Shown in pieces: positions 16,432 to 44,574 of a DNA stretch of 64,000 bases. This DNA is from Microbacter sp. GSS18. Its GTDB lineage: Bacteria; Actinomycetota; Actinomycetes; Actinomycetales; Microbacteriaceae. Below the pieces are notes generated by a model. The model was not told the origin of the DNA and searched no databases. It worked only from the letters and a program-made list of their open reading frames with translations. How positions within the stretch are numbered: position 1 is the stretch's first letter; every line of letters begins with the position of its first letter. The DNA lies in NCBI GenBank assembly GCA_029319145.1, contig CP119753.1, positions 2,542,001 through 2,606,000 on the forward strand. The letters are read 5' to 3'. A program made the translations under genes and the position numbers.

Positions 16432-16488
16432 GAAGCGGTGCCGGACGCGCGCGCGTTCGGCACCTGCCCCGACGAAGAGGAGCCGCCC

Positions 16489-22655: not shown

Positions 22656-22662
22656 CCCTCAC

Positions 22663-22694
22663 GCCCCGGTGCGCCCGCGCGGGCGCACCGGGGC
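22663..22694 (+). repeat. Perfect 32-bp palindrome between binding protein and permease
   Basis: The 16-base arm starting GCCCCGGTGCG at 22663 is followed directly by its exact reverse complement ending at 22694. It lies 8 bp after the stop of the binding-protein gene and 69 bp before the permease gene. A hairpin here would protect the upstream mRNA and reduce read-through, giving excess binding protein, a known arrangement in ABC operons. Confidence 0.6.
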
Positions 22695-22763
22695 CCATCC
22701 CGGTCGCGCTGCTCCGTCCGCCGCGACCGCCCCCATCCGCTCTGCCCTGAAAGGCCGCTCGCC

Positions 22764-23645
22764 ATGAAGTCCGTCCTCGGCGACCGCAAGGCGATCACGC
22801 TCCTGCTCACCCCGGCGCTGGTCGTCTACACCCTCATCATCCTCGTCCCCGTCCTGTGGTCGTTCGGCCTGACCTTCTTCACCGGCAACGTGCTCAGCGG
22901 CTTCGAATTCAACGGGATCGAGAACTTCACCCGTCTGTGGGGCGACCAGTACGTCCACGACGCGTTCTGGTTCACCGTCCGCTACGCCCTGCTCGTCACC
23001 CTCTTCCAGGTCGTGCTCGGCTACGGCCTCGCGCTGCTGTATCACTTCGTACTGCGCAAGTCCTCGGTCCTCGTGCGCACCCTGGTCTTCTTCCCGGTGG
23101 TCCTCCCGACCGTGGCGATCAGCATCCTGTACCAGAAGCTCTTCCAGTCCGCGCCGTCCGACGGTCTCGTCAACGAGCTGCTGGTCAACGTCGGCCTGTC
23201 CTCGGTGGACTGGCTGGGCTCGGGCGCCACGGCGTTCGTCGTCGTCGTGATCATGGACGTGTGGCGCTCGGTCGGCTTCTACGGCGTCCTGGTCTTCTCA
23301 GGCCTGCTCGACATCCCGGACGACATCATCGAGTCCGCGCGGATCGACGGCGCGAAGACGTTCAGCCTCTTCCGCCACATCGTGCTCCCGATGTCGCTGC
23401 CGATCCTGTTCGCGTCGTTCATCTTCAGCATCAACGGCACGATCAAGGTCTTCGACTCGGTCTTCGCCCTGACCGGCGGCGGCCCGGGCAACTCCACGAC
23501 GCCGCTGACGCTGTACATGTACCGCACCGCGTTCCAGTACAGCGACTTCGGCTACGGCTCCACGATCGCGCTCCTGCTCACGATCATGAGCCTGATCGTG
23601 ACCCTCATCATCTTCCGGTCGTCGCGGCGCGACAACACGGTCTAA
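22764..23645 (+). CDS. ABC sugar transporter permease, MalF-like
   Basis: The 293-residue membrane protein has six predicted transmembrane segments. The cytoplasmic EAA-type loop IIESARIDGAKTFSLFRHIVLPMSLPIL contacts the ATPase. The start KSVLGDRKAITLLLTPALVVYTLIILVPVLWSF is typical of carbohydrate permeases (MalF/UgpA class). It is 12 bp upstream of the second permease and follows the binding-protein gene, so the three form one importer. No ATPase gene is nearby, so a shared MsmK-like ATPase encoded elsewhere is likely. Confidence 0.92.
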   Translation: MKSVLGDRKAITLLLTPALVVYTLIILVPVLWSFGLTFFTGNVLSGFEFNGIENFTRLWGDQYVHDAFWFTVRYALLVTLFQVVLGYGLALLYHFVLRKSSVLVRTLVFFPVVLPTVAISILYQKLFQSAPSDGLVNELLVNVGLSSVDWLGSGATAFVVVVIMDVWRSVGFYGVLVFSGLLDIPDDIIESARIDGAKTFSLFRHIVLPMSLPILFASFIFSINGTIKVFDSVFALTGGGPGNSTTPLTLYMYRTAFQYSDFGYGSTIALLLTIMSLIVTLIIFRSSRRDNTV

Positions 23646-23657
23646 GGAGCGCTGATC

Positions 23658-24566
23658 ATGACCAACACCCTCGAGACCACAGCCGTCTCCACCAGCCTGC
23701 GCTTCGAGCCCCACCGCCGGACGCCGTGGGATCGCGCCAAGCACGTGCTGCGCCGCGTCCCCGCCTGGCTCACGATCACCTTCCTGATCGTCGTGACGGC
23801 GTACCCGCTGTTCTGGATGTTCATCAACTCGCTCAAGTCGAACAGCGACTTCCTGAGCAACCCCTCGTACGCCTTCCCCGAGGTGTGGCAGTGGGAGAAC
23901 TACGCCATCGCGTGGGAGACGGGCAACCTCGCCACGACCATCACGAACTCGATGATCGTGACGTTCCCCTCGCTGCTGCTCATCGTGATCCTCGGTTCCG
24001 CGGCGGGCTACGCGCTCGAGGTGCTCGTCTTCAAGGGCCGCGCCGGCGTGCTGCTGCTGTTCCTCGCCGGGATCATGATCCCGCTGCAGATGATCGTGCT
24101 GCCGCTGTTCAACGCGTTCTACCAGCTGGGCATCAACAACTCCTACCTGCCGATGATCCTCATCTACACGGCATCCGGTCTGCCGCTGACGGTGTTCATG
24201 ATGGCGACGTACTTCCGGGCCATCCCCCGCGAGATCTTCGAAGCGGCGACGCTCGACGGGGCCTCGATGATCCGCGCGTTCTTCGCCATCGGCTTCCCGA
24301 TGATGCGCAACGCCGTCGTCACCGTCGCCATCGTGCAGTTCTTCCTGATCTGGAACGACCTGCTGATCGCCCTGATCTTCGGCGGCAAGCGCGACCTGAA
24401 CACGATCCAGGTCGGCCTGCTGAACTTCTCGGGAGAGTACGGCGCGATCAACTACGGGCCGCTGTTCGCCGCGATCTGCATCACGGTCGTCGGCATCCTC
24501 GTGCTCTACCTCTTCCTGAACCAGCGCATCATGAAGGGCCTCGCGGCCGGCGCGGTGAAGGGCTGA
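23658..24566 (+). CDS. ABC sugar transporter permease, MalG-like
   Basis: The 302-residue partner permease has six transmembrane segments. Its EAA loop is REIFEAATLDGASMIRAFFAIGFPMMRNAV and its end LFLNQRIMKGLAAGAVKG is diagnostic of MalG/UgpE-class subunits. AAGGAG lies upstream of ATG 23658. It completes the membrane part of the importer. The transporter unit ends here, judged by the hairpin and 161-bp gap that follow. Confidence 0.92.
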   Translation: MTNTLETTAVSTSLRFEPHRRTPWDRAKHVLRRVPAWLTITFLIVVTAYPLFWMFINSLKSNSDFLSNPSYAFPEVWQWENYAIAWETGNLATTITNSMIVTFPSLLLIVILGSAAGYALEVLVFKGRAGVLLLFLAGIMIPLQMIVLPLFNAFYQLGINNSYLPMILIYTASGLPLTVFMMATYFRAIPREIFEAATLDGASMIRAFFAIGFPMMRNAVVTVAIVQFFLIWNDLLIALIFGGKRDLNTIQVGLLNFSGEYGAINYGPLFAAICITVVGILVLYLFLNQRIMKGLAAGAVKG

Positions 24567-24570
24567 TGCC

Positions 24571-24608
24571 GGTGCCGGCGGGTCGCGAGGACGGCACCCG
24601 CCGGCGCC
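24571..24608 (+). terminator. Hairpin after the importer genes
   Basis: Arms GGTGCCGGCGGGT (24571-24583) and ACCCGCCGGCGCC (24596-24608) pair over 13 bases with one G-U, around a 12-base loop, 4 bp after the permease stop. There is no T-run, but the position suits a terminator or attenuator separating the importer from the rhamnosidase operon. Confidence 0.5.
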
Positions 24609-24682
24609 GCCGAACCCGACGCACGTGCGCGTCACCGACCTGCCCGCACCACGGATGCGGGACCTCCCCATCCCCAGAGATC

Positions 24683-24716
24683 CACCCCTCTGAGAACGAT
24701 TCACCCCTCTGAGAAC
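24683..24716 (+). promoter_or_regulatory. Duplicated box before the rhamnosidase operon, matching the rhamnose operator
   Basis: CACCCCTCTGAGAAC occurs at 24683-24697 and again at 24702-24716. Between and across them, AACGATTCACC (24695-24705) is identical to part of the rhamnose-operon operator at 39913-39923. This suggests the second LacI regulator also controls this operon. No clear -35/-10 is visible in the GC-rich sequence upstream. Confidence 0.45.
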
Positions 24717-24727
24717 AAGGAGCGCCG

Positions 24728-27327
<2,600 letters not shown>

Positions 27328-27331
<4 letters not shown>

Positions 27332-28008
27332 GCGCGCAGCAGCCCCGCATCGCCCTGCTCCACACCGGCGCCGTCGTCATCGGCCCCGTGGGCGACCGCG
27401 CCCGCGCCGCGATCCCCGATGCGACGTTCGTGAACTACCTCGACGACCGCATCGTCGCCGACCTCGGCGACCCCGACCGCGCCGCATCGGTGCCCGAGCG
27501 CGTCGCGGACCTCGTGCGTGCCGCGCAGGCGGGCGGGGCCGACATGGTGATGCTGACATGCTCGTCGATCTCGGCCCTGGCAGCGCCCACGGCCGCGGAG
27601 GTCGGCATCCCGGTGCTGCGGATCGACGAGGCGATGGCCGACGCGGCCGTCGCCACAGGGCCCAGGATCGCGGTCCTCGCGACCCTGCCGACCACGTGCA
27701 CCCCGACGGTCGCGCTCATCCAGGAGCGGGCGGCGCTCGCGGACACCTCTCCGACCATCAGCGCCGAAGTGATCGACGGCGCGTTCGCCGCGGTCTCCTC
27801 CGGCGACCGCGCCACGCACGACCGTCTCGTCGCGGCCGCCGTCGAGCGCGTCGCCGACGACGCGGACGTCATCGTGCTGGCGCAGGCGTCCATGGCGTCG
27901 GCTGCCGAGCAGGTGAGCGTCGGCGTGCCGGTGCTCACCAGTGTCGCCCCGGGAGTGGAGCGGCTGCGCGAGATCGTCGCCGCCCGCGGAGAGGAGGATG
28001 CGCGATGA
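27328..28008 (+). CDS. Asp/Glu-racemase-superfamily protein lacking the second catalytic Cys
   Basis: The 226-residue protein has the two-lobed racemase fold pattern. DMVMLTCSSISALA carries the first catalytic Cys (Cys78). At the second position, where racemases have a Cys (GCT/GCA), it reads VIVLAQASMA (residues 182-190). A symmetric two-base racemisation is therefore unlikely; isomerase, decarboxylase or lyase chemistry is possible in this superfamily (maleate isomerase, arylmalonate decarboxylase). It overlaps both the rhamnosidase and GH127 genes by four bases, so it belongs to the same pathway, possibly acting on a keto- or branched sugar acid. Function is unknown. Confidence 0.75.
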
Positions 28009-29999
28009 GCGCGACGAGCACGACCGCGCTGCGCGGCCACGCCCCGCTGACACCGCTCGCCGCGGCGGACGCACAGTGGCGCAGCGGCTTCTGGGGCGCC
28101 GTCGCCGAACGGACCCGCGAGGTGACGGTGCCCTCGATGGGACGCATGCTCGACGACCCCGCGATCAGCCCGGGCCTGACCAACTTCCGCGTCGCCGCGG
28201 GCCTCGAAGAGGGCGTCCACCAGGGTCCGCCCTTCATGGACGGCGACACCTACAAGTGGCTCGAATCGGCGATCGCCCAGCTCGAGACCGCCCCCGACCC
28301 GGTCCTCGCCGACCGCATCGAGCAGATCGCGCAGCTGATCGCGTCGGTGCAGCGCGAGGACGGGTATGTGCACACGCCGACGACGATCGCCGCGAACAAC
28401 GACGAGGACGTCGTCGCCCTCGCCGACCGGTTCAACTTCGAGACCTACAACCTCGGCCACCTGATCACCACCGCGGTGCGCCACCATCGGGTCACGGGCT
28501 CCGAGACCCTGCTGGACGTCGCGAAGGGCGCCGCCCGCTTCCTCGAGATGCTCGCGACCGACAAGCCCCTCGAACTCGCCCGCAGCGCGATCTGCCCCTC
28601 GCACTACATGGCCGTCGTCGAGCTCTACCGCGCGACCGGCGACGACCGGTACCTGCGGCTCGCGGAGTCTTTCGTGCGCGTGCGCGACGACTTCGAGGAA
28701 GGCGGGGACGACAACCAGGACCGCATCCCGGTGCGCGAGCAGACCGCCGTCGCCGGCCACGCCGTGCGCGCAAACTATCTGTACGCCGGGCTCGCCGACC
28801 TTGTTGCCGAGACGGGCGATCCGCAGCTGCGGACGGTGCTCGACACGCTGTGGCAGGACGTCGTCGACAGCAAGCTCTACATCACCGGCGGCTGCGGCGC
28901 GCTGTACGACGGGGCGTCGCCCGACGGCTCGCCGTGGCAGGAGGACATCAGCCGCGTGCACCAGGCGTACGGCCGCTCATTCCAGCTGCCCAACACGACC
29001 GCCCACAACGAGTCGTGCGCGCAGATCGGGATGATCTTCTGGAGCGAGCGGATGCTGGCGCTCGACGCCGACGCACGCTACGCCGACGTCATCGAGACGA
29101 TCGCGTTCAACTCCCTTCTGTCGAGCATCGGGCTGGAGGGGAAGACGTACTTCTACACCAACCCGCTCCGCCAGGTCCGCGACCTGCCCTTCCCCCTGCG
29201 CCGCGCCGGCGACACCGCACTCCACCCGGTCCCGTCGCCGCCGCCCTCGGACGCTCGGCTGCGCGAGGAGTACCTCAGCTGCTTCTGCTGCCCGCCGAAC
29301 ATCGCGCGGACGCTGTCGGAGTTCCACGAGCGCATCGCATCCGTCTCGGGGGACGGCCTCTTCGTGCACCAGTACGGCGGCTCCGGCATCCGCCACGCCT
29401 TCGAGGACGGGCGGATGCTCGCGCTCGACGAGCAGTCCGACTACCCGTGGGACGGGCGGCTGACGTTCACCGTCGCCGACGCCGCGGGCACGGTGGCGCT
29501 CCACCTGCGGATCCCGGGCTGGTCGCGCGACGCGACCCTCACCGTGAACGGCGAGCCCGTCGAGGTCACCGCGCCGTCCAGCTACACCCGCATCGAGCGG
29601 GCGTGGCAGCCCGGGGATGTCGTGGTGCTCGACCTGCCGATGCCGGTGCGCATCGTCCGCGGCCACCGTCTCGCCGAGGAGATCACGAACCAGGTCGCCG
29701 TGCAGCGCGGCCCCGTGGTGTACTGCGTCGAGAGCCCGGACCTGCCCGCCGGCGTCGCGCTCGAGCAGGCCGCGCTGCGCCGCGGCCCGCGGCCGACCCC
29801 GGTCGAGGCCGAGATCGCCGGACACCGGGTCGTGGCCCTCGAGGCCGAGATCGCCGTCCTGCCGGCGGTCGCCGACACGCTCTACGACGACCTGGACGAC
29901 GCCGAGGTCGCCACCGCGACGGCGCGGCTGATCCCGTACTTCGCGTGGAGCAACCGCGGTCCGAGCGAGATGTCGGTGTGGATGCCGGTGGTGTGGTGA
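28005..29999 (+). CDS. GH127 (DUF1680) glycoside hydrolase
   Basis: The 664-residue protein matches GH127, whose known members include beta-L-arabinofuranosidases and, in rhamnogalacturonan-II degradation, an aceric-acid hydrolase. The Zn-thiolate site is visible: Glu336 and Cys338 in AHNESCAQIG, and Cys428-Cys429 in SCFCCPPNIARTL. At the spot I align with the acid/base Glu of the Bifidobacterium enzyme (E322) there is Gln320 in RVHQAYG, which may mark a subfamily with other specificity. There is no signal peptide. It is coupled to the racemase-like gene by ATGA and followed after 4 bp by the RuBisCO-like gene. This supports intracellular cleavage of an unusual pectic or glycosidic residue. 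Confidence 0.88.
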   Translation: MSATSTTALRGHAPLTPLAAADAQWRSGFWGAVAERTREVTVPSMGRMLDDPAISPGLTNFRVAAGLEEGVHQGPPFMDGDTYKWLESAIAQLETAPDPVLADRIEQIAQLIASVQREDGYVHTPTTIAANNDEDVVALADRFNFETYNLGHLITTAVRHHRVTGSETLLDVAKGAARFLEMLATDKPLELARSAICPSHYMAVVELYRATGDDRYLRLAESFVRVRDDFEEGGDDNQDRIPVREQTAVAGHAVRANYLYAGLADLVAETGDPQLRTVLDTLWQDVVDSKLYITGGCGALYDGASPDGSPWQEDISRVHQAYGRSFQLPNTTAHNESCAQIGMIFWSERMLALDADARYADVIETIAFNSLLSSIGLEGKTYFYTNPLRQVRDLPFPLRRAGDTALHPVPSPPPSDARLREEYLSCFCCPPNIARTLSEFHERIASVSGDGLFVHQYGGSGIRHAFEDGRMLALDEQSDYPWDGRLTFTVADAAGTVALHLRIPGWSRDATLTVNGEPVEVTAPSSYTRIERAWQPGDVVVLDLPMPVRIVRGHRLAEEITNQVAVQRGPVVYCVESPDLPAGVALEQAALRRGPRPTPVEAEIAGHRVVALEAEIAVLPAVADTLYDDLDDAEVATATARLIPYFAWSNRGPSEMSVWMPVVW

Positions 30000-30003
30000 T
30001 CGC

Positions 30004-31260
30004 ATGAGCAGCCAGCACGTGATCGCGACCTATCACATCGAGACGTCGCTGCCCCTTCAGCACGCGGCCGAGGTGCTCGCCGGCGAGCAGTCCACCGGCA
30101 CGTTCGTGCGCGTCGCGCGCGAATCCGACGAGGTGCGCGCACGGTTCGCCGCGCAGGTGGAGAGCATCGAGGAGCTCGAGCCGACCGGCGCGTCGGCCCT
30201 GCCGGGCTCGGTCGGCGACCCAGCCGACCGCCGGCGCGCGCTGCTGCGCCTGCGGTTTCCGCTGGACAACTTCGGCCCGTCGCTGCCCAACCTTCTCGCC
30301 GCCGTCGCCGGCAACCTCTTCGAGATCAAGGAGCTCGCCGCCATCAAGCTGCTCGACCTCGAGCTGCCGTCGCCTTTCGCCGACCGGTACGCCGGACCCC
30401 GCTTCGGCGTGGCCGGGACCCGGCAGCTGATGTCGCGGGCCGAGGGCGCCATGATCGGCACCATCGTCAAGCCGAGCATCGGGCTGAGCCCCGCGGAGCT
30501 CGGCGAGCTCGTCGGCGAGCTCGCCGATGCCGGCATCGACTTCATCAAGGACGACGAGCTGCAGGGCAACGCACCGCACTCGCCGCTCGCCGCTCGGATC
30601 GCCGCGGTGATGCCGGTGCTGGAGCGCCACGCCGACCGCACCGGCGTGAAGCCGATGTACGCCTTCAACATCACCGACGACATCGACCGTCTCGAGGCCA
30701 ACCACGACATGGTCGTGGCCGCCGGCGGGACGTGCGTCATGGTGTGCATCAACATGGTGGGCCTCGCCGGACTCGACTACCTCAGCCGCCGCTCGCAGGT
30801 CCCCATCCACGGCCACCGCGCGATGTTCGGCTCGATCAGCCGCTCCGAGCAGGTGGGCATCCACTTCCGCGCGTGGCAGCAGCTCGCGCGTCTCTCGGGC
30901 GCAGACCATCTGCACACGAACGGCATCTCGAACAAGTTCTACGAGTCGGACGCGCAGGTGCTCGATGCGATCGCCGCCGTCCGAGAGCCGCTGCTGGGCA
31001 CGACGCCGACCGTGCCGGTGCTCTCGTCCGGCCAGTGGGGCGGCTTGGCGCACGCCACCTACGCCGCGGTCGGCTCGACGGACCTGCTGGTGCTCGCCGG
31101 CGGCGGCATCCACGGGCATCCCGACGGATCCGCCGCGGGCGTGGCGAGCATGCGCGAGGCGTGGGCGTCCGCGGCAGCAGGAGAGACCGCCGAGCAGGCG
31201 CTCGAGCGGTCGACGGCGCTGCGGCGCGCGACCGAGAGGTTCGGCCCGGTCCGTGTCTAG
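30004..31260 (+). CDS. RuBisCO-like protein (RLP), probable acid-sugar-phosphate decarboxylase or transcarboxylase
   Basis: The 418-residue protein has the RuBisCO large-subunit fold. Active-site segments are GTIVKPSIGLS (Lys156, equivalent to K175), DFIKDDE (Lys182 carbamate site, Asp184, Glu185), HGHRAMFG, DHLHTNGISNKF (equivalents of H327 and K334) and SSGQWGG. All metal ligands remain, unlike enolase-type RLPs that lose some. Metal-complete RLPs paired with DUF1537 kinases act on 3-oxo-isoapionate 4-phosphate in D-apiose catabolism (OiaX decarboxylase, OiaT transcarboxylase/hydrolase). The next gene is such a kinase, overlapping by 8 bp. Carbon fixation is unlikely, with no small subunit or phosphoribulokinase. 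The precise substrate is inference. Confidence 0.85.
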   Translation: MSSQHVIATYHIETSLPLQHAAEVLAGEQSTGTFVRVARESDEVRARFAAQVESIEELEPTGASALPGSVGDPADRRRALLRLRFPLDNFGPSLPNLLAAVAGNLFEIKELAAIKLLDLELPSPFADRYAGPRFGVAGTRQLMSRAEGAMIGTIVKPSIGLSPAELGELVGELADAGIDFIKDDELQGNAPHSPLAARIAAVMPVLERHADRTGVKPMYAFNITDDIDRLEANHDMVVAAGGTCVMVCINMVGLAGLDYLSRRSQVPIHGHRAMFGSISRSEQVGIHFRAWQQLARLSGADHLHTNGISNKFYESDAQVLDAIAAVREPLLGTTPTVPVLSSGQWGGLAHATYAAVGSTDLLVLAGGGIHGHPDGSAAGVASMREAWASAAAGETAEQALERSTALRRATERFGPVRV

Positions 31261-32545
31261 GGTGCGGGTCGCGTACTACGGCGACGACTTCACCGGCAGC
31301 GTCGACGTCCTGCTGCAGTTCGCCCGGCGCGGCTGGACGGGTCGGCTGTTCGCCGGGCTTCCCGCGCCGGGCCTGCTGGAGCAGGCGGCGCGCGACGTCG
31401 ACGTGGTCGGCATCGCGGGGATCGCGCGGTCACTGACCACCGAGGAGCTCGAGGCCGAGGTGCGTCCCGCCCTCGAAGCGCTCAGGGCGCTGCGGCCCGC
31501 GGTCGTGCAGTACAAGGCGTGTTCGACGGCTGATTCGTCGCCCACGATCGGGAGCCTCGGACGGGTCATCGAGATCGCGCGCGACGTCGTCGGGGAGCAG
31601 CCGGTGCCGCTGCTGTTCGCGCAGCCCGACTTCGGGCGGTACACGCTCTTCGGCCACCACTTCGCCCGCGAAGGCGACACCGTCCACCGTCTCGACCGCC
31701 AGCCGACGATGTCGACGCACCCCTCGACCCCCATGACGGAGTCCGACCTCGCCGCCCACCTGTCCCGACAGACGACACTGCCGATCGGCCATATCCCGTT
31801 CACGGAATACACGTCGGTCGACGCCGTGGCTTGCGCCGTGCGAGAGTCCCCCGATGCCGCGCTCGTGCTCGACGCCGCGGACGACGGGCACCTCGAGATG
31901 ATCGGCGCCGCCCTCACGGCGCTTTCGGGCGACGAGCCTCTCTTCGCGCTCGGCTCGGGCGGCCTCAGCTATGCGCTGGCCGGCGCCTCGCCGGGTTCGA
32001 GCGCGCCCCTGCCGCGCTCGACGGCCGGACACGGTCCGGTCCTCGCCGTCTCGGGCAGCCGTTCTGCACGGACCCGCGCGCAGATGGACGCAGCCGTCGA
32101 GGCGGGATGGTTCGTCGCGCCGATGCCGCTGGATCCCCGAGCCCGCGACGACGCCGTCGGCCGCGCGAGCGCGGAGCTGCGGTCGGGGCGGAGTGTCGCG
32201 TTCAGTTCGGATGACGCCGAGGTGTCGGCGCTCGCGCCGGGCGACGTGCTGAGCGCGCTCGCCGACACCGCGGCCGATCTGATCGGCCGGATCGCCCGCA
32301 CCGGCGCCGTGCGTCGCGCCATCGTATGCGGCGGCGACACGTCCAGCCGCGTCACGACGCTGCTCGGCGTCGACTCGCTGTCGATCGCGGCCAATCCGAC
32401 CGGCAACGTCGTGCTCCTCGAGGCGCACGCCGCTGACCCCGCGATCGACGGGCTGGAGCTGCTGCTCAAGGGCGGACAGGTCGGCGATGTCGACCTCTTC
32501 GAGGGGATCCGCACGCTCGGCGACGAGGGGACGTCCGACGCATGA
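31253..32545 (+). CDS. DUF1537 four-carbon acid-sugar kinase family protein (OiaK-like candidate)
   Basis: The 430-residue protein starts VRVAYYGDDFTGSVDVLLQFARRG, the acid-sugar-binding N-terminal domain of DUF1537 kinases. It continues to VLAVSGSRSARTRAQMDAA and AIVCGGDTSSRVTTLLGVDSLSI in the nucleotide-binding C-terminal domain. Known members phosphorylate threonate, erythronate-derived acids or 3-oxo-isoapionate. Start GTG 31253 overlaps the RLP stop (GTGTCTAG); a second GTG at 31262 is possible. It overlaps the following dehydrogenase by ATGA. Together with the RLP it forms the kinase/decarboxylase pair seen in apiose pathways, so a branched or keto acid sugar is its likely substrate. 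Confidence 0.85.
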   Translation: MSRVRVAYYGDDFTGSVDVLLQFARRGWTGRLFAGLPAPGLLEQAARDVDVVGIAGIARSLTTEELEAEVRPALEALRALRPAVVQYKACSTADSSPTIGSLGRVIEIARDVVGEQPVPLLFAQPDFGRYTLFGHHFAREGDTVHRLDRQPTMSTHPSTPMTESDLAAHLSRQTTLPIGHIPFTEYTSVDAVACAVRESPDAALVLDAADDGHLEMIGAALTALSGDEPLFALGSGGLSYALAGASPGSSAPLPRSTAGHGPVLAVSGSRSARTRAQMDAAVEAGWFVAPMPLDPRARDDAVGRASAELRSGRSVAFSSDDAEVSALAPGDVLSALADTAADLIGRIARTGAVRRAIVCGGDTSSRVTTLLGVDSLSIAANPTGNVVLLEAHAADPAIDGLELLLKGGQVGDVDLFEGIRTLGDEGTSDA

Positions 32546-35442
32546 GCGGCGTGCACGTGCGCCCTGTGCCGCCGCAGATCGTGGCCGCCGTCGCCGAGGC
32601 CGACCGCATCAAGACCCGCGCCATCGACCGCGTCGCCTACGCGAGCGATGCCTCGCACTACCTGTTCACCCCCGACGCCGTCGTGGTCGCCGAAGACGCC
32701 GCCGAGGTGGCGCGGGTGATGCGCGCGGCGTCGGCGTCGGCATCCGTCCTCACCTTCCGCTCGGGCGGGACGAGCCTGTCGGGCCAGTCCTCGGGTGACG
32801 GCATCCTCGTCGACGTGCGGCGCGGCTTCCGGCGCATCGACGTCCTCGACGACGGTCGCCGCGTGCGCGTTCAGCCGGGTGCGACGGTGCGGCAGGTCAA
32901 CGCGCGCCTCGCCCGCCATGGCTACCGCCTCGGTCCCGATCCCGCCAGCGAGGCAGCCTGCACCATCGGCGGTGTCGTGAGCAACAACTCCTCGGGCATG
33001 GCGTGCGGAACCCTCGAGAACACGTATCGGACCCTGGAGTCGCTCGTCTTCGTCCTGCCGTCCGGAACGATCGTCGACACCGCGGCCCCGGATGCGGATG
33101 CCGCCCTCCGCCGCGCCGAACCGGACCTGGTCGACACGCTGCTGCGCCTGCGTCGCCGAGTCGTCGACAACGCGCGCTCGGTGGAGATCATCCGGCGCCA
33201 GTTCGCGATGAAGAACACGATCGGATACGGCGTCAACGCGTTCCTGGACTTCGACTCGCCCGCCGAGCTGCTCGCCCACCTCGTGATCGGCAGCGAGGGC
33301 ACGCTCGCGTTCGTCGCCGAGGCGACCTACCGCACCGTCCCCATCCGTCCCCACGTGGCAACGGGTCTGGCGGTCTTCCCCGATCTCGACACCGCGACGC
33401 GCTCCCTGTCCGACCTCGTCGAGACCGGCGCCGCGACGCTCGAGCTGATGGACTCCACGTCGCTGCGCGTCGGCCAGTCGCTCGCCGGCGCCCCGTCGCA
33501 GATCACCGGCTTCGAGGTCACGGGCGAAGCGGCACTGCTCGTGGAGTACCACGCGTTCGAGGCCGACGAGCTGCGCGACCTCGTCGCCGCAGGACACCGG
33601 GTGCTCGATGCGCAGCCGCTGCGGGCCCGCGCACCGCTGGCCTCCGACGCCGCCCTGCGCGCGTCGGCGTGGAAGCTGCGCAAGGGGCTGTACGCGACGG
33701 TCGCGGGGGCGCGCCCGAGCGGCACCACGGCTCTGCTCGAGGACGTCGTCGTGCCCGTTCCCGCGCTCGCCGAGACCTGCGCATCGCTGCAGGACCTGTT
33801 CGAGCGCTACGACTATCGCGACAGCGTCATCTTCGGCCACGCCAAGGACGGCAACATCCACTTCATGCTCACCGACCGGTTCGAGACCGACGAGCAGCTG
33901 GGCCGATTCACGGGCTTCACCGCGGACATGGTCGACCTCATCCTGGCCGCGGGCGGAAACCTGAAGGCCGAGCACGGCACCGGTCGTGCGATGGCTCCGT
34001 ACGTGCGGCGGCAGTACGGCGACGAGCTCTACGACGTGATGCGCGAGCTCAAGCGCGCGTGCGACCCCTCGGGCATCCTGAACCCCGGCGTCATCATCGA
34101 CGACGACCCCGACGCGCACGTGCGCGGGATCAAGCTGGCCGACCCGATCGAGCCCGAGGCCGACCGCTGCGTCGAGTGCGGATACTGCGAGCCGGTGTGC
34201 CCGTCGAAGGACCTGACGCTCACGCCCCGCCAGCGCATCGTCACCCGCCGGGCCGTCGCCCGCGCGCAGCGCGAAGGCGACACGGCGTTCGCCGACGCCA
34301 TCGAGCGCGACTACGACTACGCGGGCGTCCAAACCTGCGCCGTCGACGGCATGTGCCAGACGGCCTGCCCCGTGCTCATCAACACCGGCAGCCTCGTCAA
34401 GCGCCTGCGGAGCGAGGACCGCTCGCCCGTGATCGGGGCGGCATGGGACGCCGCGGCCACGGCGTGGGGCCCCGTGACACGGCTGGGATCGGTCGCCCTG
34501 ACGGCGACGGAAAAGCTCCCGGCGGCCGCGGTCGCGGCGGTCACGAGTGTCGGCCGCGCCGTGCTCGGCGCCGACACCGTTCCCGCGTACTCGGGCGATC
34601 TGCCCGCCGGCGGCCCCGCCCGACGCGGGCTGGGGCCGAGCATCGGGTCGGGTGCGGACGCGCCGATCGCGGTGTTCCTGCCGGCATGCGTCAACAGCAT
34701 GTTCGGTCCCGCCGGCGACGGCATCGGCGTCACCGCCGCGATGGCCCGGCTCGCCGAACGCGCCGGGGTCCGTCTCGTCGTGCCCGAGGGCATCGAGTCG
34801 CTGTGCTGCAGCACGCCGTGGACGTCGAAGGGCTACCCCGGCGGGCGGGCCACGATGGCGCGTCGCGTGGCCGACGCGATCCGCTCCTGGGGGACGACGC
34901 TTCCCGTCGTCAGCGATGCCTCGAGCTGCACCGAGGGCTTCGCGCACCTCCTCGCGGACGAGGGCGTCGACGCCGTCGTCGAGGACGCGGTCTCGTTCGC
35001 GGAACGCGAGCTGCTCCCGCGCCTCGAAGTGACCGCGCGCCTCGCGGGCACGCTGGCGCTGCATCCGACCTGCTCGTCGACCCAGCTCGGGATCGACACC
35101 GCGCTCGTGGGCGTCGCCTCCGCCGTGGCGGACGACGTCCGCATACCCGATGCCTGGGGATGCTGCGCGTTCGCCGGGGACCGCGGCATGCTGCATCCAG
35201 AACTCACCGCGTCCGCCACGGCCGCCGAAGCGGCCGACGTCGCGGCGATGGGGGCCGCCGCCCACGCATCGTGCAACCGCACGTGCGAGCTCGGCATGAC
35301 CCGGGCCACGGGCGAGAGCTACCGCCATGTCCTCGAGCTGCTGGAGGAGGCGACGCGGCCCGCGCAGCCGATGGAGTCCGGGCCCGGCACGGAGCGGGCC
35401 ACCCGCACAGACGTGACCCGGGCCGACCCGCGCAGCGCGTGA
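32542..35442 (+). CDS. Fused FAD/Fe-S 2-hydroxyacid dehydrogenase (GlcD-GlcF / D-lactate dehydrogenase type)
   Basis: The 966-residue protein joins several domains. A PCMH FAD-binding domain (about residues 40-220, with TFRSGGTSLSGQS and DPASEAACTIGGVVSNNSSG) and a FAD-oxidase C-terminal domain (GHAKDGNIHFML, KAEHGTGRAMAPYV) come first. Two 4Fe-4S motifs follow (CVECGYCEPVCP from residue 543, CAVDGMCQTACP from 599). Cysteine-rich CCG domains end it (LCCSTPW, WGCCAFAGDRG). This is GlcD fused to GlcF, as in membrane-linked glycolate or D-lactate dehydrogenases feeding electrons to the respiratory chain. An OiaT-type RLP would release glycolate, which this enzyme could oxidise to glyoxylate; oxidation of lactate from rhamnose is the alternative. 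It is the last gene of the operon. Confidence 0.9.
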   Translation: MSGVHVRPVPPQIVAAVAEADRIKTRAIDRVAYASDASHYLFTPDAVVVAEDAAEVARVMRAASASASVLTFRSGGTSLSGQSSGDGILVDVRRGFRRIDVLDDGRRVRVQPGATVRQVNARLARHGYRLGPDPASEAACTIGGVVSNNSSGMACGTLENTYRTLESLVFVLPSGTIVDTAAPDADAALRRAEPDLVDTLLRLRRRVVDNARSVEIIRRQFAMKNTIGYGVNAFLDFDSPAELLAHLVIGSEGTLAFVAEATYRTVPIRPHVATGLAVFPDLDTATRSLSDLVETGAATLELMDSTSLRVGQSLAGAPSQITGFEVTGEAALLVEYHAFEADELRDLVAAGHRVLDAQPLRARAPLASDAALRASAWKLRKGLYATVAGARPSGTTALLEDVVVPVPALAETCASLQDLFERYDYRDSVIFGHAKDGNIHFMLTDRFETDEQLGRFTGFTADMVDLILAAGGNLKAEHGTGRAMAPYVRRQYGDELYDVMRELKRACDPSGILNPGVIIDDDPDAHVRGIKLADPIEPEADRCVECGYCEPVCPSKDLTLTPRQRIVTRRAVARAQREGDTAFADAIERDYDYAGVQTCAVDGMCQTACPVLINTGSLVKRLRSEDRSPVIGAAWDAAATAWGPVTRLGSVALTATEKLPAAAVAAVTSVGRAVLGADTVPAYSGDLPAGGPARRGLGPSIGSGADAPIAVFLPACVNSMFGPAGDGIGVTAAMARLAERAGVRLVVPEGIESLCCSTPWTSKGYPGGRATMARRVADAIRSWGTTLPVVSDASSCTEGFAHLLADEGVDAVVEDAVSFAERELLPRLEVTARLAGTLALHPTCSSTQLGIDTALVGVASAVADDVRIPDAWGCCAFAGDRGMLHPELTASATAAEAADVAAMGAAAHASCNRTCELGMTRATGESYRHVLELLEEATRPAQPMESGPGTERATRTDVTRADPRSA

Positions 35443-39970: not shown

Positions 39971-40366
39971 ATGACGAGCCCCGGCTCACCGACGCGCGTC
40001 TGCTTCCAGCTCCAGGTCAAGCCCGACATGCTCGACGAGTACATCCGCCGCCACACGCCGGTGTGGCCCGAGATGCTCGCCGAGATCGCCGCCGCCGGAC
40101 GCCGCAACTACTCGCTCTTCCTCGCCGACGGCGGCCGGCTCATCGGCTACTACGAGACCGACGACGACGAGGCCGCGCAAGAGTACCTCGCCTCATCCGA
40201 GGTCGCCGCGAAGTGGGAGGCGCAGATGGCGCCGTTCTTCGTCGGCCTCGACGGTCGCCCCGACCAGGCCGCCACCCCCCTCACCGAGGTCTTCAACCTC
40301 GCCGATCAGCTCCACGCCGCACAGTCGGCACCCTCGCCCACCACCGAAGAAAGCAGTGCATCATGA
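39971..40366 (+). CDS. rhaM: L-rhamnose mutarotase
   Basis: The 131-residue protein matches RhaM/RhaU: RVCFQLQVKPDMLDEYIRRHTPVWPEMLAEIAAAGRRNYSLFL, then LIGYYETDD and a C-terminal LTEVFNLAD. The His in RRHTPVWPEM and the Tyr in GYYE are the expected active-site residues. It interconverts rhamnose anomers for the isomerase. It is the first gene of the rhamnose operon, and its stop overlaps the rhaI ATG (ATGA). The C-terminal 20 residues are a Ser/Ala-rich extension. Confidence 0.92.
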   Translation: MTSPGSPTRVCFQLQVKPDMLDEYIRRHTPVWPEMLAEIAAAGRRNYSLFLADGGRLIGYYETDDDEAAQEYLASSEVAAKWEAQMAPFFVGLDGRPDQAATPLTEVFNLADQLHAAQSAPSPTTEESSAS

Positions 40367-41529
40367 CGACGCTGTCCCCCGAGATCCTCTCCACCCTCGA
40401 AGGCCAGGGCATCGAACTGCCCTCGTGGGCGTTCGGCAACTCCGGCACCCGCTTCCGCGTGTGGACGACCGAGGGCACCCCGCGTGACCCCCGCGAGAAG
40501 ATCGCCGACGCCGCGCAGGTCAACAAGTACACCGCGCTCGCCCCGTCGGTCGCCCTCCACATCCCGTGGGACAAGGTCGACGACTACGCCGAGCTTCGCT
40601 CGTACGCCGAAGATCTCGGCGTCGCGCTCGGCACCATCAACTCCAACACGTTCCAGGACGAGGACTACAAGTTCGGCGCCCTGACCCACCACGACGACCG
40701 CATCCGCCAGAAGGCCATCGACCACCACTTCGAGTGCATCGACATCATGGATGCCACGGGATCGCGCGACCTGAAGATCTGGCTCGCCGAGGGTTCGAAC
40801 TACCCCGGTCAGATGGACATGCGCGCCCGCCAGGACCGTCTGAACGACTCCCTGCAGAAGATCTACGCGCGCCTGGGCGACGAGCAGCGCCTGGTGCTGG
40901 AGTACAAGTTCTTCGAGCCGTCGTTCTACCACACCGACGTTCCCGACTGGGGCACGTCCTACGCCCAGGTCGCCACGCTCGGCGACAAGGCGATGGTGTG
41001 CCTCGACACCGGGCACCACGCGCCGGGCACCAACATCGAGTTCATCGTCATGCAGCTGCTGCGCCTGGGCAAGCTCGGCTCGTTCGACTTCAACTCGCGC
41101 TTCTACGCCGACGACGACCTCATCGTGGGCGCCGCCGACCCGTTCCAGCTCTTCCGCATCCTGTTCGAGGTCATCCGCGGCGGCGGCCTGAACAACCCCG
41201 ATGTGGCCTTCATGCTCGACCAGTGCCACAACATCGAGGACAAGATCCCCGGCCAGATCCGCTCGGTGCTCAACGTCCAGGAGATGACGGCCCGCGCGCT
41301 GCTCGTCGACCGCGAGGCCCTCGACGCCGCGCAGGCCGCCAACGACGTGCTCGCCGCCAACGCGGTGTTCATGGACGCCTTCTACACCGACGTGCGTCCG
41401 GCCCTGGCCGAGTGGCGCGAGTCGCGCGGGCTCCCCGCCGACCCGATGGCGGCCTACGCCGCCTCGGGCTACCAGCAGCAGATCGTCGCCGACCGCGTCG
41501 GCGGCACGCAGGCCGGCTGGGGCGCATGA
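40363..41529 (+). CDS. rhaI: L-rhamnose isomerase (RhaI type)
   Basis: The 388-residue TIM-barrel protein matches the RhaI class (Pseudomonas/Bacillus type), not E. coli RhaA. Metal-site segments are EYKFFEPSFYHTDVPDWGTSYA, CLDTGHHAPGTNIEFIV and FDFNSRFYADDDLIVGAADPFQLFRI. It converts L-rhamnose to L-rhamnulose in the cytosol. ATG 40363 is set by the four-base overlap with rhaM. The stop overlaps the start of the esterase gene in the same way. Confidence 0.95.
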   Translation: MTTLSPEILSTLEGQGIELPSWAFGNSGTRFRVWTTEGTPRDPREKIADAAQVNKYTALAPSVALHIPWDKVDDYAELRSYAEDLGVALGTINSNTFQDEDYKFGALTHHDDRIRQKAIDHHFECIDIMDATGSRDLKIWLAEGSNYPGQMDMRARQDRLNDSLQKIYARLGDEQRLVLEYKFFEPSFYHTDVPDWGTSYAQVATLGDKAMVCLDTGHHAPGTNIEFIVMQLLRLGKLGSFDFNSRFYADDDLIVGAADPFQLFRILFEVIRGGGLNNPDVAFMLDQCHNIEDKIPGQIRSVLNVQEMTARALLVDREALDAAQAANDVLAANAVFMDAFYTDVRPALAEWRESRGLPADPMAAYAASGYQQQIVADRVGGTQAGWGA

Positions 41530-42386
41530 TTGAGCCGTACCTCGACGCCGACGGACTGGTGCGCGTGTACCCCGCGCACCAGCCGGACGGCACGGGCATC
41601 GTCTGGGCGCACGGCGGCGGCTTCGCCCACGGCGACCTCGACATGCCCGAGTCCGACTGGGTGGCCCGGCAGCTCGCCGCGCGCGGAACCACCGTCGTCT
41701 CGGTCGACTACCGCCTCGCGCCGACCCTGCTGTGGGGACGGATGCCGGGCGAGGAGCCGCGCGCCGGCGAGCACTACCCCGCCGCCTCGGACGACATGCT
41801 CGCGGCCTGGTCGTGGACGGTCGAGAACGCCGAGCGCCTCGGCATCGACACCGACCGGCTCGCGATCGGCGGCACCAGCGCCGGCGGCAACCTCTCGGCC
41901 GGCGCCGTGCTTCGCCTGCGCGAGCAGGGGGCGCCGACGACGCCGGCGCTCGTCGTGCTCGCCTACCCGTCGCTGCACGCCGTCCAGCCCGCCCCAGGGC
42001 CCGACCTGCGCGCCGCCCTCGACGCGGACCCGGAGGCCGACCGCTTCGGCCCCGAGGTCGTCCGCGGCATGTACGAGAACTACCTCGGCGGTCCCGTGGA
42101 CGGCGCCCCGCTCGGCGCCATCCCGGGGGCTGCGACCCCGGCCGAGCTGGCGGACTTCCCGCCGACCCTCATGATCAACAGCGACGCCGACGAGCTGCGC
42201 GTCTCGGGCGAGGCCTTCGCGGCCGCGCTGCGCGAGGCCGACTGCGAGATCGACGTCGTCACCGAGCCCGGCACGCAGCACGGTCACCTCAACCGTCCCG
42301 CCGAGCCCGCGGCATCCGCGTCGATCGACCGCATCGCGGGCGTCCTCGCCGCTCTGTCCACCCGCCTTCCCTCCACCTCCTCCTGA
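41526..42386 (+). CDS. Alpha/beta-hydrolase (HSL-type esterase) in the rhamnose operon
   Basis: The 286-residue protein has the hormone-sensitive-lipase pattern: oxyanion motif HGGGF near residue 29, nucleophile elbow GGTSAGGN with the catalytic Ser, NSDADELR with the Asp, and a late His in TQHGH. It has no signal peptide. It overlaps rhaI by ATGA and precedes the aldolase gene, so its job is tied to rhamnose use. Removal of acetyl or other ester groups from imported rhamnosides is a reasonable guess, but it is not a standard rhamnose-pathway enzyme. Confidence 0.85.
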   Translation: MIEPYLDADGLVRVYPAHQPDGTGIVWAHGGGFAHGDLDMPESDWVARQLAARGTTVVSVDYRLAPTLLWGRMPGEEPRAGEHYPAASDDMLAAWSWTVENAERLGIDTDRLAIGGTSAGGNLSAGAVLRLREQGAPTTPALVVLAYPSLHAVQPAPGPDLRAALDADPEADRFGPEVVRGMYENYLGGPVDGAPLGAIPGAATPAELADFPPTLMINSDADELRVSGEAFAAALREADCEIDVVTEPGTQHGHLNRPAEPAASASIDRIAGVLAALSTRLPSTSS

Positions 42387-42404
42387 TACCGAAGGAACAC
42401 TCCC

Positions 42405-44441
42405 ATGACGAATCCCGCAGCCGCCGACCTCCTCGCGCGCAGCAACCGCCTGGGCGCCGACCCGAAGAACACCAACTACGCCGGCGGCAACACCTCCGCC
42501 AAGGGCACCGAGACCGACCCCGTGACGGGCGAGCCCGTCGAGCTGCTGTGGGTCAAGGGCTCGGGCGGCGACCTCGGCACCCTCAAGGAGGCGGGCCTGG
42601 CCGTCCTGCGCCTGGACCGCATGCGCTCGCTCGTGAACGTCTACCCGGGCATCGACCGCGAGGACGAGATGGTCGCCGCGTTCGACTACTGCCTGCACGG
42701 CAAGGGCGGGGCCGCCCCGTCGATCGACACCGCCATGCACGGGCTGGTCGACGCCGCGCACGTGGACCACCTGCACCCCGACTCGGGCATCGCGATCGCC
42801 ACCGCCGCCGACGGCGAGGAGCTGACCGCGAAGATCTTCGGCGACAAGGTCGTGTGGGTGCCGTGGCGCCGCCCCGGCTTCCAGCTGGGCCTGGACATCG
42901 CCGACATCAAGGCGAAGAACCCGCAGGCGATCGGCTGCATCCTCGGCGGCCACGGCATCACCGCGTGGGGCGACACGTCCGAGGAGAGCGAGAAGAACTC
43001 GCTCTGGATCATCGATACGGCGGCCGCCTACATCGCCGAGCACGGCAAGGCCGAGCCCTTCGGCGCCGTGCGGTCGGGCTTCGAGGCCCTGCCCGAGGCC
43101 GAACGCCACGCGAAGGCCGCCGCGATCGCCGCTACGATCCGCGGTCTCGCCTCGACCGACAAGCCGATGGTCGGCCACTACACCGACTCCGACGTCGTGC
43201 TCGACTTCCTCGCGAGCGAGAACGCCCCGGCCCTCGCCGAGCTCGGCACCAGCTGCCCCGACCACTTCCTGCGCACCAAGGTCAAGCCGATGCTGCTCGA
43301 CCTTCCGGCATCCGCAACGGTCGAGGAGTCGATCGCACGCCTGAAGGAGCTGCACGAGGCCTACCGCGCCGACTACCAGGCCTACTACGACGCGCACGCC
43401 ACCGAGGACTCCCCCGCGATCCGCGGCGCCGACCCCCTCATCGTTCTCGTGCCGGGCGTCGGCATGTTCTCCTACGGCGCCAACAAGCAGACCGCGCGCG
43501 TCGCCGGAGAGTTCTACGTCAACGCCATCAATGTCATGCGCGGCGCCGAGTCGCTGTCGACCTACACCCCGATCTCGGATGCCGAGAAGTTCCGCATCGA
43601 GTACTGGGCCCTCGAAGAGGCCAAGCTCCAGCGCATGCCCAAGCCCAAGACCCACGCCGGCCGCATCGCGTTCGTGACCGGCGCCGCCTCGGGCATCGGC
43701 AAGGCCATCGCCACGCGCCTCGCGGCCGAGGGCGCATGCGTCGTCGTCGCCGACCTCGACCTCGAGAAGGCGCAGGCCGCGGCGGCCGAGCTCGGCGGCG
43801 CGGACGTCGCGATCGGCGTGGCAGCCAACGTGGCGGATGCCGACGGCGTCCAGGCCGCGATCGACGCGACCCTGCTGGCGTTCGGCGGCATCGACCTCGT
43901 CGTCAACAACGCCGGCCTGTCGCTGTCGAAGCCGCTGCTGGAGACCACCGAGAAGGACTGGGACCTGCAGCACGACGTCATGGCCAAGGGCTCGTTCCTG
44001 GTCTCGAAGGCCGCCGCGAAGGCGCTCATCGAGCAGGGACTGGGCGGCGACGTCGTCTACATCTCGTCGAAGAACTCCGTCTTCGCCGGTCCGAACAACA
44101 TCGCGTACTCGGCGACCAAGGCCGACCAGGCCCACCAGGTGCGTCTGCTGGCGGTCGAGCTCGGCGAGCACGGCGTGCGCGTGAACGGCATCAACCCCGA
44201 CGGCGTCGTCCGCGGCTCGGGCATCTTCGCCGCCGGCTGGGGCGCCAACCGCGCCGCGACCTACGGCGTGAAGGAAGAGGACCTCGGCCAGTTCTACGCC
44301 AACCGCACCATCCTCAAGCGCGAGGTCGTGCCCGAGAACGTCGCCGACGCGGTGTACGTCCTCACCGGCCCCGAGCTCAGCCGCACCACGGGACTGCACA
44401 TCCCCGTCGACTCCGGCGTCGCGCAGGCGTTCCTGCGATGA
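42405..44441 (+). CDS. rhaEW: Bifunctional L-rhamnulose-1-phosphate aldolase / lactaldehyde dehydrogenase
   Basis: The 678-residue protein fuses a class II aldolase domain (residues about 1-400; NYAGGNTSAK, Zn-site DHLHPDSG, GGHGITAWGD) to an SDR domain from about 420 (TGAASGIGKAIA, NNAGLS, catalytic YSATKADQ). The first half splits rhamnulose 1-phosphate to dihydroxyacetone phosphate and L-lactaldehyde, and the second oxidises lactaldehyde to lactate. The same fusion is known in Bacillus and actinobacterial rhamnose operons. AAGGAAC precedes ATG 42405. A 133-bp gap rich in inverted repeats separates it from rhaB. Confidence 0.94.
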   Translation: MTNPAAADLLARSNRLGADPKNTNYAGGNTSAKGTETDPVTGEPVELLWVKGSGGDLGTLKEAGLAVLRLDRMRSLVNVYPGIDREDEMVAAFDYCLHGKGGAAPSIDTAMHGLVDAAHVDHLHPDSGIAIATAADGEELTAKIFGDKVVWVPWRRPGFQLGLDIADIKAKNPQAIGCILGGHGITAWGDTSEESEKNSLWIIDTAAAYIAEHGKAEPFGAVRSGFEALPEAERHAKAAAIAATIRGLASTDKPMVGHYTDSDVVLDFLASENAPALAELGTSCPDHFLRTKVKPMLLDLPASATVEESIARLKELHEAYRADYQAYYDAHATEDSPAIRGADPLIVLVPGVGMFSYGANKQTARVAGEFYVNAINVMRGAESLSTYTPISDAEKFRIEYWALEEAKLQRMPKPKTHAGRIAFVTGAASGIGKAIATRLAAEGACVVVADLDLEKAQAAAAELGGADVAIGVAANVADADGVQAAIDATLLAFGGIDLVVNNAGLSLSKPLLETTEKDWDLQHDVMAKGSFLVSKAAAKALIEQGLGGDVVYISSKNSVFAGPNNIAYSATKADQAHQVRLLAVELGEHGVRVNGINPDGVVRGSGIFAAGWGANRAATYGVKEEDLGQFYANRTILKREVVPENVADAVYVLTGPELSRTTGLHIPVDSGVAQAFLR

Positions 44442-44464
44442 ACACCGCCGGCATCCCGGCATCC

Positions 44465-44553: not shown

Positions 44554-44574
44554 GACACGGGAAGGGAGCGCATC

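Follow-up and report, generated by a model that had tools for sequence, protein, structure and literature searches.

A RuBisCO-like protein and its operon in Microbacter sp. GSS18: a probable role in the catabolism of aceric acid

The operon at positions 21384-35442 of the window, which is the whole stretch of 64,000 nucleotides analysed here and to which the coordinates refer (the host genome of Microbacter sp. GSS18 is one contig of 4.03 Mb), contains a RuBisCO-like protein (RLP) among sugar-uptake and glycoside hydrolase (GH) genes and raises the question of which sugar is degraded by it. The first-pass annotation had named apiose or aceric acid as the substrate. Our comparisons indicate that this is probably a catabolic operon for aceric acid, a rare, branched and acidic sugar that plant cell walls carry in side chain B of rhamnogalacturonan II (RG-II), and aceric acid as the predicted substrate is well supported. 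The genes of the operon are as follows.

21384-22655, plus strand: sugar-binding protein of an ATP-binding cassette (ABC) transporter (SBP_bac_1, Pfam 70.6 bits), with homologues near the RLP or GH127 in related loci
22764-23645, plus strand: ABC transporter permease 1 (BPD_transp_1), with homologues near the RLP
23658-24566, plus strand: ABC transporter permease 2, named by position and similarity, with homologues conserved beside permease 1
24728-27331, plus strand: GH78 alpha-L-rhamnosidase (Bac_rhamnosid6H 428.7 bits and four further Pfam domains; top PDB match 6gsz, 824 bits)
27328-28008, plus strand: PF01177 protein of Asp/Glu-racemase fold, proposed aceric acid aldose-ketose isomerase, in which C78 is conserved and the second catalytic Cys is replaced by Gln186
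28005-29999, plus strand: GH127 assigned to the subfamily of BT_1003, an aceric acid hydrolase, by its 5mqo match and diagnostic residues
30004-31260, plus strand: RLP of 418 amino acids with an ATG start, proposed carboxyl-transferase/hydrolase or decarboxylase on phosphorylated keto aceric acid
31253-32545, plus strand: relative of the DUF1537 four-carbon acid sugar kinases, starting at GTG 31253 or GTG 31262
32542-35442, plus strand: GlcD-GlcF fusion, a flavin adenine dinucleotide/iron-sulfur 2-hydroxyacid dehydrogenase of 966 amino acids with an ATG start, proposed to oxidise lactate

The RLP, the kinase and the GlcD-GlcF fusion are translationally coupled and are the last genes of the operon. 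If the kinase starts at GTG 31253 it overlaps the end of the RLP by 8 bases, and the ATG of the fusion at 32542 overlaps the end of the kinase by 4 bases. This run downstream of GH78 and GH127 had been described in the first-pass annotation, and its gene set and overlaps were borne out. The PF01177 gene, which is located between GH78 and GH127 and overlaps both, had been overlooked there. An initial codon model failed on the kinase and the PF01177 gene, and the codon model was then trained on homologous genes.

Aceric acid is indicated by the GH127 and by its tie to the RLP. The GH127 matches PDB entry 5mqo, taken to be BT_1003 from its PDB title ('Glycoside hydrolase BT_1003'), with 612 bits, compared with 361, 301 and 265 bits for three arabinofuranosidases. 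BT1003 is described as an aceric acid hydrolase of RG-II breakdown in the accessible parts of two papers (PMC10850190, PMC5698469). A diagnostic set was compiled of 48 positions at which 34 RLP-linked GH127s are conserved and whose residues are rarely seen in 14 ordinary GH127s from the same bacterial family. Of these, BT_1003 has 36 of the 46 that can be compared and 3 of the 32 positions that are conserved in the ordinary GH127s and absent from the RLP-linked set, while its whole-length identity is less sharp (39-49% to RLP-linked GH127s and 31-37% to the others). By similarity and diagnostic residues the window GH127 is a member of the BT_1003 subfamily, and it is predicted to release aceric acid. 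The structure modelled for it reaches only a moderate mean pLDDT of 75, with low stretches around residues 298-334 and 385-419, and no pocket argument is drawn from it. Unlike BT_1003 of Bacteroides thetaiotaomicron, the window enzyme shares its operon with genes for an RLP, a kinase and an ABC importer. In a search that did not cover B. thetaiotaomicron, PF00016 was detected in 5 of 14 control genomes, and no Bacteroides was among these five.

Among 199 genomes of the family, the RLP (at least 63% identity; next 50%), the BT_1003-like GH127 (at least 588 bits; next 340) and the PF01177 protein (at least 177.8 bits; next 126.6) were all found in the same six genomes, which represent five genera, and within about 10 kb of one another; the 340-bit GH127 is an additional copy in one of these six. 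If kinship is ignored, two random sets of six among 199 would coincide with a probability of 1.3e-11. A wider repeat in 296 genomes of the phylum found an RLP of at least 60% with a GH127 of at least 45% in the window genome alone and is uninformative for co-occurrence; RLPs of 46-55% were observed in six others, three of them matching over part of their length.

These distributions bear on an alternative explanation in which the GH127 frees ordinary beta-L-arabinofuranose, or 3,6-anhydro-D-galactose, and the RLP and kinase act on an unrelated, co-regulated acid. The GH127 family does include an anhydrogalactosidase as well as beta-L-arabinofuranosidases, and in the parts of the sources available the latter make up almost the whole GH127/GH146 tree of PMC10850190, with a Zobellia GH127 placed in a carrageenan cluster (PMC5698469). 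However, ordinary GH127s (at most 336 bits, E 1e-60) are found in 73 further family genomes without this RLP, whereas the BT_1003-like GH127 occurs solely with the RLP, and the residues conserved in ordinary GH127s are replaced. We therefore consider this explanation improbable.

The RLP itself belongs to the RuBisCO-like superfamily, as both Pfam domains exceed their cut-offs (PF00016 217.5 bits, cut-off 30.1; PF02788 49.9 bits, cut-off 20.7) and the equivalents of Lys175, Lys201, Asp203 and Glu204 are present. Against one form I RuBisCO the equivalents (RuBisCO=RLP) are E60=E28, N123=N104, K175=K156, K201=K182, D203=D184, E204=E185, H294=H271, R295=R272, H327=H304 and K334=K311, where the numbering is anchored on KPKLGL and labels beyond about 294 shift by one as the reference is one residue short from there. 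The six residues that had been listed earlier as intact (those at 175, 201, 203, 204, 327 and 334) were recovered in this alignment. E60, N123 and K334 have established roles in RuBisCO. The window RLP shares K175, K201, D203, E204, E60, N123, H327 and K334 with form I RuBisCO but has changed the T173 and K177 equivalents and, unlike that enzyme, is part of a catabolic operon that holds no small-subunit gene. Several RLPs, among them the window protein (30004-31260) and homologues such as P0002 and P0013, carry the source name 'ribulose-bisphosphate carboxylase large chain'. Such names would falsely imply carbon fixation, and the aceric acid reading would correct a common mislabel.

The nearest named family of the RLP is OiaX, although its score on the NCBIfam model (NF042437 equivalog) is 413.3 bits with a cut-off of 700; OiaX of Rhizobium johnstonii, from an annotated apiose-type cluster, scores 780 bits. 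In a tree of 96 rows (one short row was omitted and no proven OiaT sequence was found to include), the window RLP is placed in an actinobacterial clade of 47 rows (support 100/76), apart from three Rhizobium/Sinorhizobium rows annotated as OiaX and far from an MtnW row. Its nearest named relatives are from Microbacterium, Herbiconiux and other Actinomycetota. Methionine salvage was rejected on the MtnW score (TIGR03332, 147.5 bits, cut-off 513.6) and the tree distance from that one MtnW row, so that the phylogeny agrees with the earlier expectation of an RLP outside the methionine-salvage clade and places it in its own clade beside the OiaX-type RLPs. Fifteen positions, among them 274, 295, 305, 348 and 371, were found to have different main residues in 38 GH127- or PF01177-linked clade RLPs and in 23 ApnO-linked or OiaX-named RLPs. 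The kinase resembles the RLP in this respect: it is a DUF1537 four-carbon acid sugar kinase by Pfam (PF07005 164 bits and PF17042 65.1 bits, both over cut-off) and OiaK is its nearest named family, with 247.9 bits against a cut-off of 700 (NF042436 equivalog).

Eighty loci from named genomes were compared, 42 in the RLP clade and 38 outside it. Within 10 kb of the RLP, the clade loci have the kinase in 40/42, the window-type GH127 in 33/42 and the PF01177 protein in 33/42, whereas the other loci have the kinase in 34/38, the window-type GH127 in 0/38, the PF01177 protein in 12/38 and an OiaX-linked ApnO in 19/38. These counts are from blastp with at least half of the library protein covered and miss diverged or truncated genes, for example the distant GH127 of locus L065; those given below for GH2, Zn-dehydrogenase, short-chain dehydrogenase/reductase (SDR) and aldo/keto reductase are counts of similarity groups, and 11 of the 42 clade loci end early at contig ends. 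The nine clade loci without the GH127 are six from Kribbella, one from Leucobacter and two (L054, L056) that end inside the kinase.

The similarity to OiaX and OiaK brings in apiose. D-Apiose catabolism reportedly includes an OiaC route as well as OiaK/OiaX and OiaK/OiaT steps (Carter et al. 2018). In the latter two, a DUF1537 kinase is paired with an RLP that acts on a phosphorylated branched beta-keto acid, and the two genes lie close together as here. The window operon differs from these systems in having a GH127 and a PF01177 protein in place of ApnO, ApnL and apiose dehydrogenase, and its RLP differs from OiaX in its clade, the 15 separating positions and its score (413 bits, with 248 for the kinase, against cut-offs of 700). 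The earlier remark that the apionate oxidoisomerase (ApnO) and apiose dehydrogenase are absent is correct for the operon but not, in the case of the oxidoisomerase, for the genome. With ApnO and ApnL of R. johnstonii as queries, the search gave relatives at 40% and 34% identity, whose genes start at 2523907 and 2525547 with a single gene between them, about 48 kb upstream of the RLP; the dehydrogenase slot there holds an SDR. They belong to a complete-looking apiose cluster of the OiaC kind outside the window (G000:C1:2519263-2527289, L111/L112), which runs in the order GntR-like regulator (by inspection), Dak1/Dak2 kinase, RpiB-type protein (150 bits; DerI cut-off 240), TIM-type protein, xylose-isomerase-like TIM barrel, PGDH_C protein (ApnO-like), SDR and ApnL-like protein (229 bits; NCBIfam cut-off 750). 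We take this to be the gene set of the OiaC route, with the names OiaC, LerK, LerI and DerI assigned from pathway order and from Pfam and NCBIfam.

Could the RLP and kinase then be an additional route for apiose (OiaK/OiaX or OiaK/OiaT) that draws its 3-oxo-isoapionate from the upstream ApnO? Besides the nearest named families, the presence of the ApnO-like and ApnL-like genes 48 kb away is consistent with this, as are ApnO genes about 13-45 kb from the RLP in G057, G179 and G068; the distance is about 13-48 kb in four of the five genomes that hold both, the fifth (G040) having them on separate contigs. However, the upstream cluster already has an OiaC-slot TIM barrel and DhaK-, TIM- and RpiB-type genes, the NCBIfam cut-offs are missed widely, and the linkage to GH127 would be left without explanation. 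Window-type ApnO (at least 63% identity) was found in 44 of the 199 family genomes, five with the window-type RLP and 39 without any RLP of at least 45%, while G107 has the RLP module and no match to this ApnO. Apiose use here thus seems not to require the RLP, and the two modules can be separated, which makes a second apiose branch unlikely. In G026 and G137 an RLP of another kind (about 50% identity) stands next to an ApnO that also differs, and in L057 one ApnO of the OiaC type is about 8 kb from the RLP. Apiose as the main substrate was rejected on the separate OiaC-like cluster, the missed OiaX and OiaK cut-offs and the absence of OiaX-linked ApnO within 10 kb in all 42 clade loci (0/42); in the window genome apiose is probably handled by the upstream cluster. 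From the original pair of candidates, aceric acid is therefore the one retained.

The chemistry of aceric acid suggests why the apiose oxidoreductases may be dispensable. Aceric acid is 3-C-carboxy-5-deoxy-L-xylose, CHO-CHOH-C(OH)(COOH)-CHOH-CH3, and moving its carbonyl from C1 to C2 gives CH2OH-CO-C(OH)(COOH)-CHOH-CH3, which is 3-oxo-isoapionate with one H replaced by methyl and hence a beta-keto acid of the type used by OiaK and OiaX/OiaT. As isomerisation reaches this keto acid, neither oxidation nor ApnO would be needed, which would explain their absence. The ketone at C2 beside the carboxyl-bearing C3 had been anticipated in the first-pass annotation and fits, but the oxidation of C2 that it invoked is unneeded.

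In the pathway that we propose, the substrate would be taken up by the ABC importer, probably as a small rhamnose-containing oligosaccharide. The GH127 would cut the aceric acid bond and the GH78 a rhamnose bond, with rhamnose passing to the rhamnose operon downstream and apiose to the apiose cluster upstream. The PF01177 protein may then turn aceric acid into the ketose, and the DUF1537 kinase would phosphorylate the CH2OH beside the ketone as OiaK does with 3-oxo-isoapionate. The RLP would preferably shift the carboxyl in the manner of OiaT, with hydrolysis to 3-phosphoglycerate and lactate, or at nearly equal likelihood decarboxylate in the manner of OiaX to a 5-deoxypentulose 1-phosphate that an aldolase would cut into dihydroxyacetone phosphate and acetaldehyde (the OiaX and OiaT reactions are given in the available part of PMC6302742). 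The GlcD-GlcF fusion would finally oxidise lactate to pyruvate. The gene content, the subfamily of the GH127, the co-occurrence, the residue patterns and the separate apiose-type cluster are computed results, whereas the isomerase, kinase, RLP and lactate steps and the form taken up are inferred.

The candidate isomerase belongs to PF01177 by Pfam cut-off and fold. Its single sequence gave no PDB relative at E 1e-3, and a profile built from 25 sequences found some. C78 is invariant and the second position is Gln186 in 25/25 relatives, aligned with a Cys of allantoin racemase 5lfd, so the protein departs from the two-cysteine racemases. It shares the fold and the first catalytic Cys with the Asp/Glu/hydantoin racemases but has an invariant Gln for the second Cys and, unlike them, is found at the isomerase slots of sugar and sugar-acid operons. 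As the operon's one uncommitted enzyme for that step, it is the probable aceric acid aldose-ketose isomerase. Seven of 28 places with lower-scoring PF01177 proteins were examined. In L154-L157 these proteins have an FGGY kinase and an aldolase (DeoC/LacD or tagatose type) as neighbours, in what appears to be the isomerase slot of an uncharacterised sugar pathway, and L154 also has an alpha-amylase-like protein.

Several observations weigh against this assignment and against the substrate. Familiar PF01177 enzymes are racemases, maleate-type isomerases and decarboxylases, and we know of no sugar-isomerase relative of this protein. It also occurs in the 12 loci outside the RLP clade and beside ApnO in L086, the only locus with both nearby, so its role may be wider, and one of the seven relatives examined (L151) suits no isomerase slot. 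Distant GH127 proteins are found near RLPs outside the clade, in L065 and in a Croceibacterium plasmid (L100, uncounted). The six Kribbella clade loci have neither the PF01177 protein nor the GH127, and five of them have a Zn-dehydrogenase; a GalE-like SDR group recurs in the window and in 10/42 clade loci, and 6 clade loci have a member of an aldo/keto reductase group. These recurring groups leave room for an oxidoreductive entry, in which aceric acid would be reduced or oxidised by a dehydrogenase and the PF01177 protein, rather than being the isomerase, would have some other function such as epimerising a later intermediate. The Zn-dehydrogenase that stands beside the RLP in the Kribbella and Streptomyces loci instead would suit such an entry. 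On the other hand, no such oxidoreductase group comes near the 33/42 of the PF01177 protein, the second catalytic Cys of the racemases is gone from it, and it occupies the isomerase slot of two unrelated pathway types. We regard the dehydrogenase entry as the less probable course, though one with an appreciable chance.

For the RLP, a carboxyl shift with hydrolysis to 3-phosphoglycerate and lactate seems to us slightly more likely than plain decarboxylation. This preference is based on the retained residues, the adjacency of GlcD-GlcF in several orders and the genes of L104. The E60, N123 and H327 equivalents are kept in the window RLP and altered, in an 85-row alignment, in the three OiaX rows alone. 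The GlcD-GlcF fusion has FAD_binding_4, FAD-oxidase_C and Fer4_8 over cut-off and CCG at 22.5 (cut-off 20.6), with NCBIfam scores below their cut-offs. It is downstream of the RLP in the window and L022, convergent in L058 and divergent in three Jiangella loci (0.1 kb off) and L158 (0.8 kb off). In L104 (Cupriavidus) pyruvate kinase and enolase genes lie about 4 kb past the RLP and kinase, an order which suggests 3-phosphoglycerate as the RLP product there. Two facts temper the preference: just 16/42 clade loci have GlcD-GlcF at most 10 kb from the RLP, and the ApnO-linked RLPs keep E60 and N123 too, so that these residues cannot tell a decarboxylase from a transferase.

A plain decarboxylase acting on the same substrate would convert the ketose 1-phosphate to the 5-deoxypentulose 1-phosphate, to be cut by a class II aldolase such as RhaD of the rhamnose operon. 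OiaX being the nearest named family, the bifunctional RhaD aldolase/dehydrogenase 7 kb downstream of the operon and the recurrence of a class II aldolase group in RLP loci of Bacillota are in keeping with it. That aldolase group, however, is present in 0/42 clade loci and RhaI within 10 kb in just 5/42, the GlcD-GlcF adjacency indicates a 2-hydroxyacid, and the RLP retains carboxylation residues that the three OiaX rows do not. Decarboxylation is thus a serious contender that falls somewhat short of an even chance.

Taken together with the carboxyl shift, the genes may describe a first catabolic route for aceric acid, in which a single-base aldose-ketose isomerase of racemase fold precedes an RLP with carboxylation residues that shifts the sugar's own carboxyl to give 3-phosphoglycerate and lactate. 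The kinase-RLP core would be an exchangeable module: for apiose its supplier would be ApnO, for aceric acid either the PF01177 protein or a Zn-dehydrogenase. We put this complete scheme forward tentatively. Aceric acid was described in 1983 by Spellman et al., as cited in the accessible part of PMC12168206, and a literature search (RG-II, GH127, isomerase, metabolism) found no catabolic route for it, although subscription papers were mostly outside reach and absence from print is unproven. The concrete three-enzyme proposal makes its metabolism directly testable. If true, it would add a natural substrate to the RuBisCO superfamily that is chemically close to RuBisCO's own intermediate, and an Asp/Glu-racemase fold that acts as a sugar isomerase.

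Side chain B of RG-II contains aceric acid, rhamnose and apiose (PMC8218411, from the part available), and these three correspond to the RLP operon, the rhamnose operon downstream of it and the apiose cluster upstream. Members of one GH2 similarity group occur in 22 loci, of which 19 belong to the RLP clade; according to the accessible text of PMC11739564, the galactose-aceric acid unit is a target of BT_0993, a GH2. RG-II-like genes accompany the RLP and kinase in Kribbella (L048, L050-L053, L066) and on a Streptomyces plasmid (L102). The plasmid has GH28, GH78, GH2, fucosidase, sialidase-family and DUF5060/DUF5605 genes, and L048, the one Kribbella locus scanned, has PF13204 apiosidase-like, GH28 and BNR genes. 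The Zn-dehydrogenase adjoins the RLP in L102 and in five of the six Kribbella loci, and these loci share an unnamed protein of about 570 amino acids with very weak GH127 similarity in L048 and no Pfam match in L102. L097 (Bacteroidota) has GH106, GH78-like and GH2 genes and L089 (Verrucomicrobiota) a GH95 gene. In the window genome no PF13204 apiosidase was found by a search that was positive in 2 of 14 control genomes, and no relative of the GH2 group at E 1e-50 in a search without control. Both negatives tell against a full RG-II role, as the genome could at most finish chain B fragments, and the organism probably consumes fragments made by others.

The features around the operon are the following.

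15540-16379, minus strand: GalE-like SDR, with relatives near ABC and GH78 genes in the 10/42 clade loci
16438-17754: MGH1/GH63-like glycosidase, upstream of the operon and next to the genes for LacI and GH3
17775-18791, minus strand: LacI-family regulator (from its translation; same similarity group as a second, scanned LacI)
18886-21204, minus strand: GH3 glycosidase, divergent from the operon (Glyco_hydro_3 222.7 bits; an upstream start at 21300 is open as well)
39971-46014, plus strand: rhamnose operon with mutarotase (39971), L-rhamnose isomerase (40363), esterase (41526), rhamnulose-1-phosphate aldolase/dehydrogenase (42405) and a rhamnulokinase-like gene (44575)

The rhamnose operon scores 95.8 bits for PF05336 and 628 and 1020 bits for TIGR02635 and TIGR02632 (both over cut-off), while its rhamnulokinase-like gene has 416 bits for TIGR02627, below the cut-off of 528. 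From its position the LacI-family protein at 17775-18791 possibly regulates the operon. In L022 the GalE-like SDR is placed between permease 2 and GH78.

Other RLP loci differ in their gene content. On a Cupriavidus plasmid (L104:9968-19442) the RLP and kinase are followed by genes for a binding protein of the tripartite ATP-independent periplasmic (TRAP) type, an SDR, pyruvate kinase and enolase. The Bacillota loci L060-L062, L070 and L071 have an RLP and an OiaK-like kinase together with members of the class II aldolase and Zn-dehydrogenase groups, and L061, which was scanned, showed TRAP transporter genes; perhaps these loci serve a third branched acid sugar. A further locus, L043, is titled Planococcus (Bacillota) but has a Microbacterium-like RLP (78%) and rhamnose genes 89-90% identical to those of the window, and is probably from a mislabelled or contaminated assembly.

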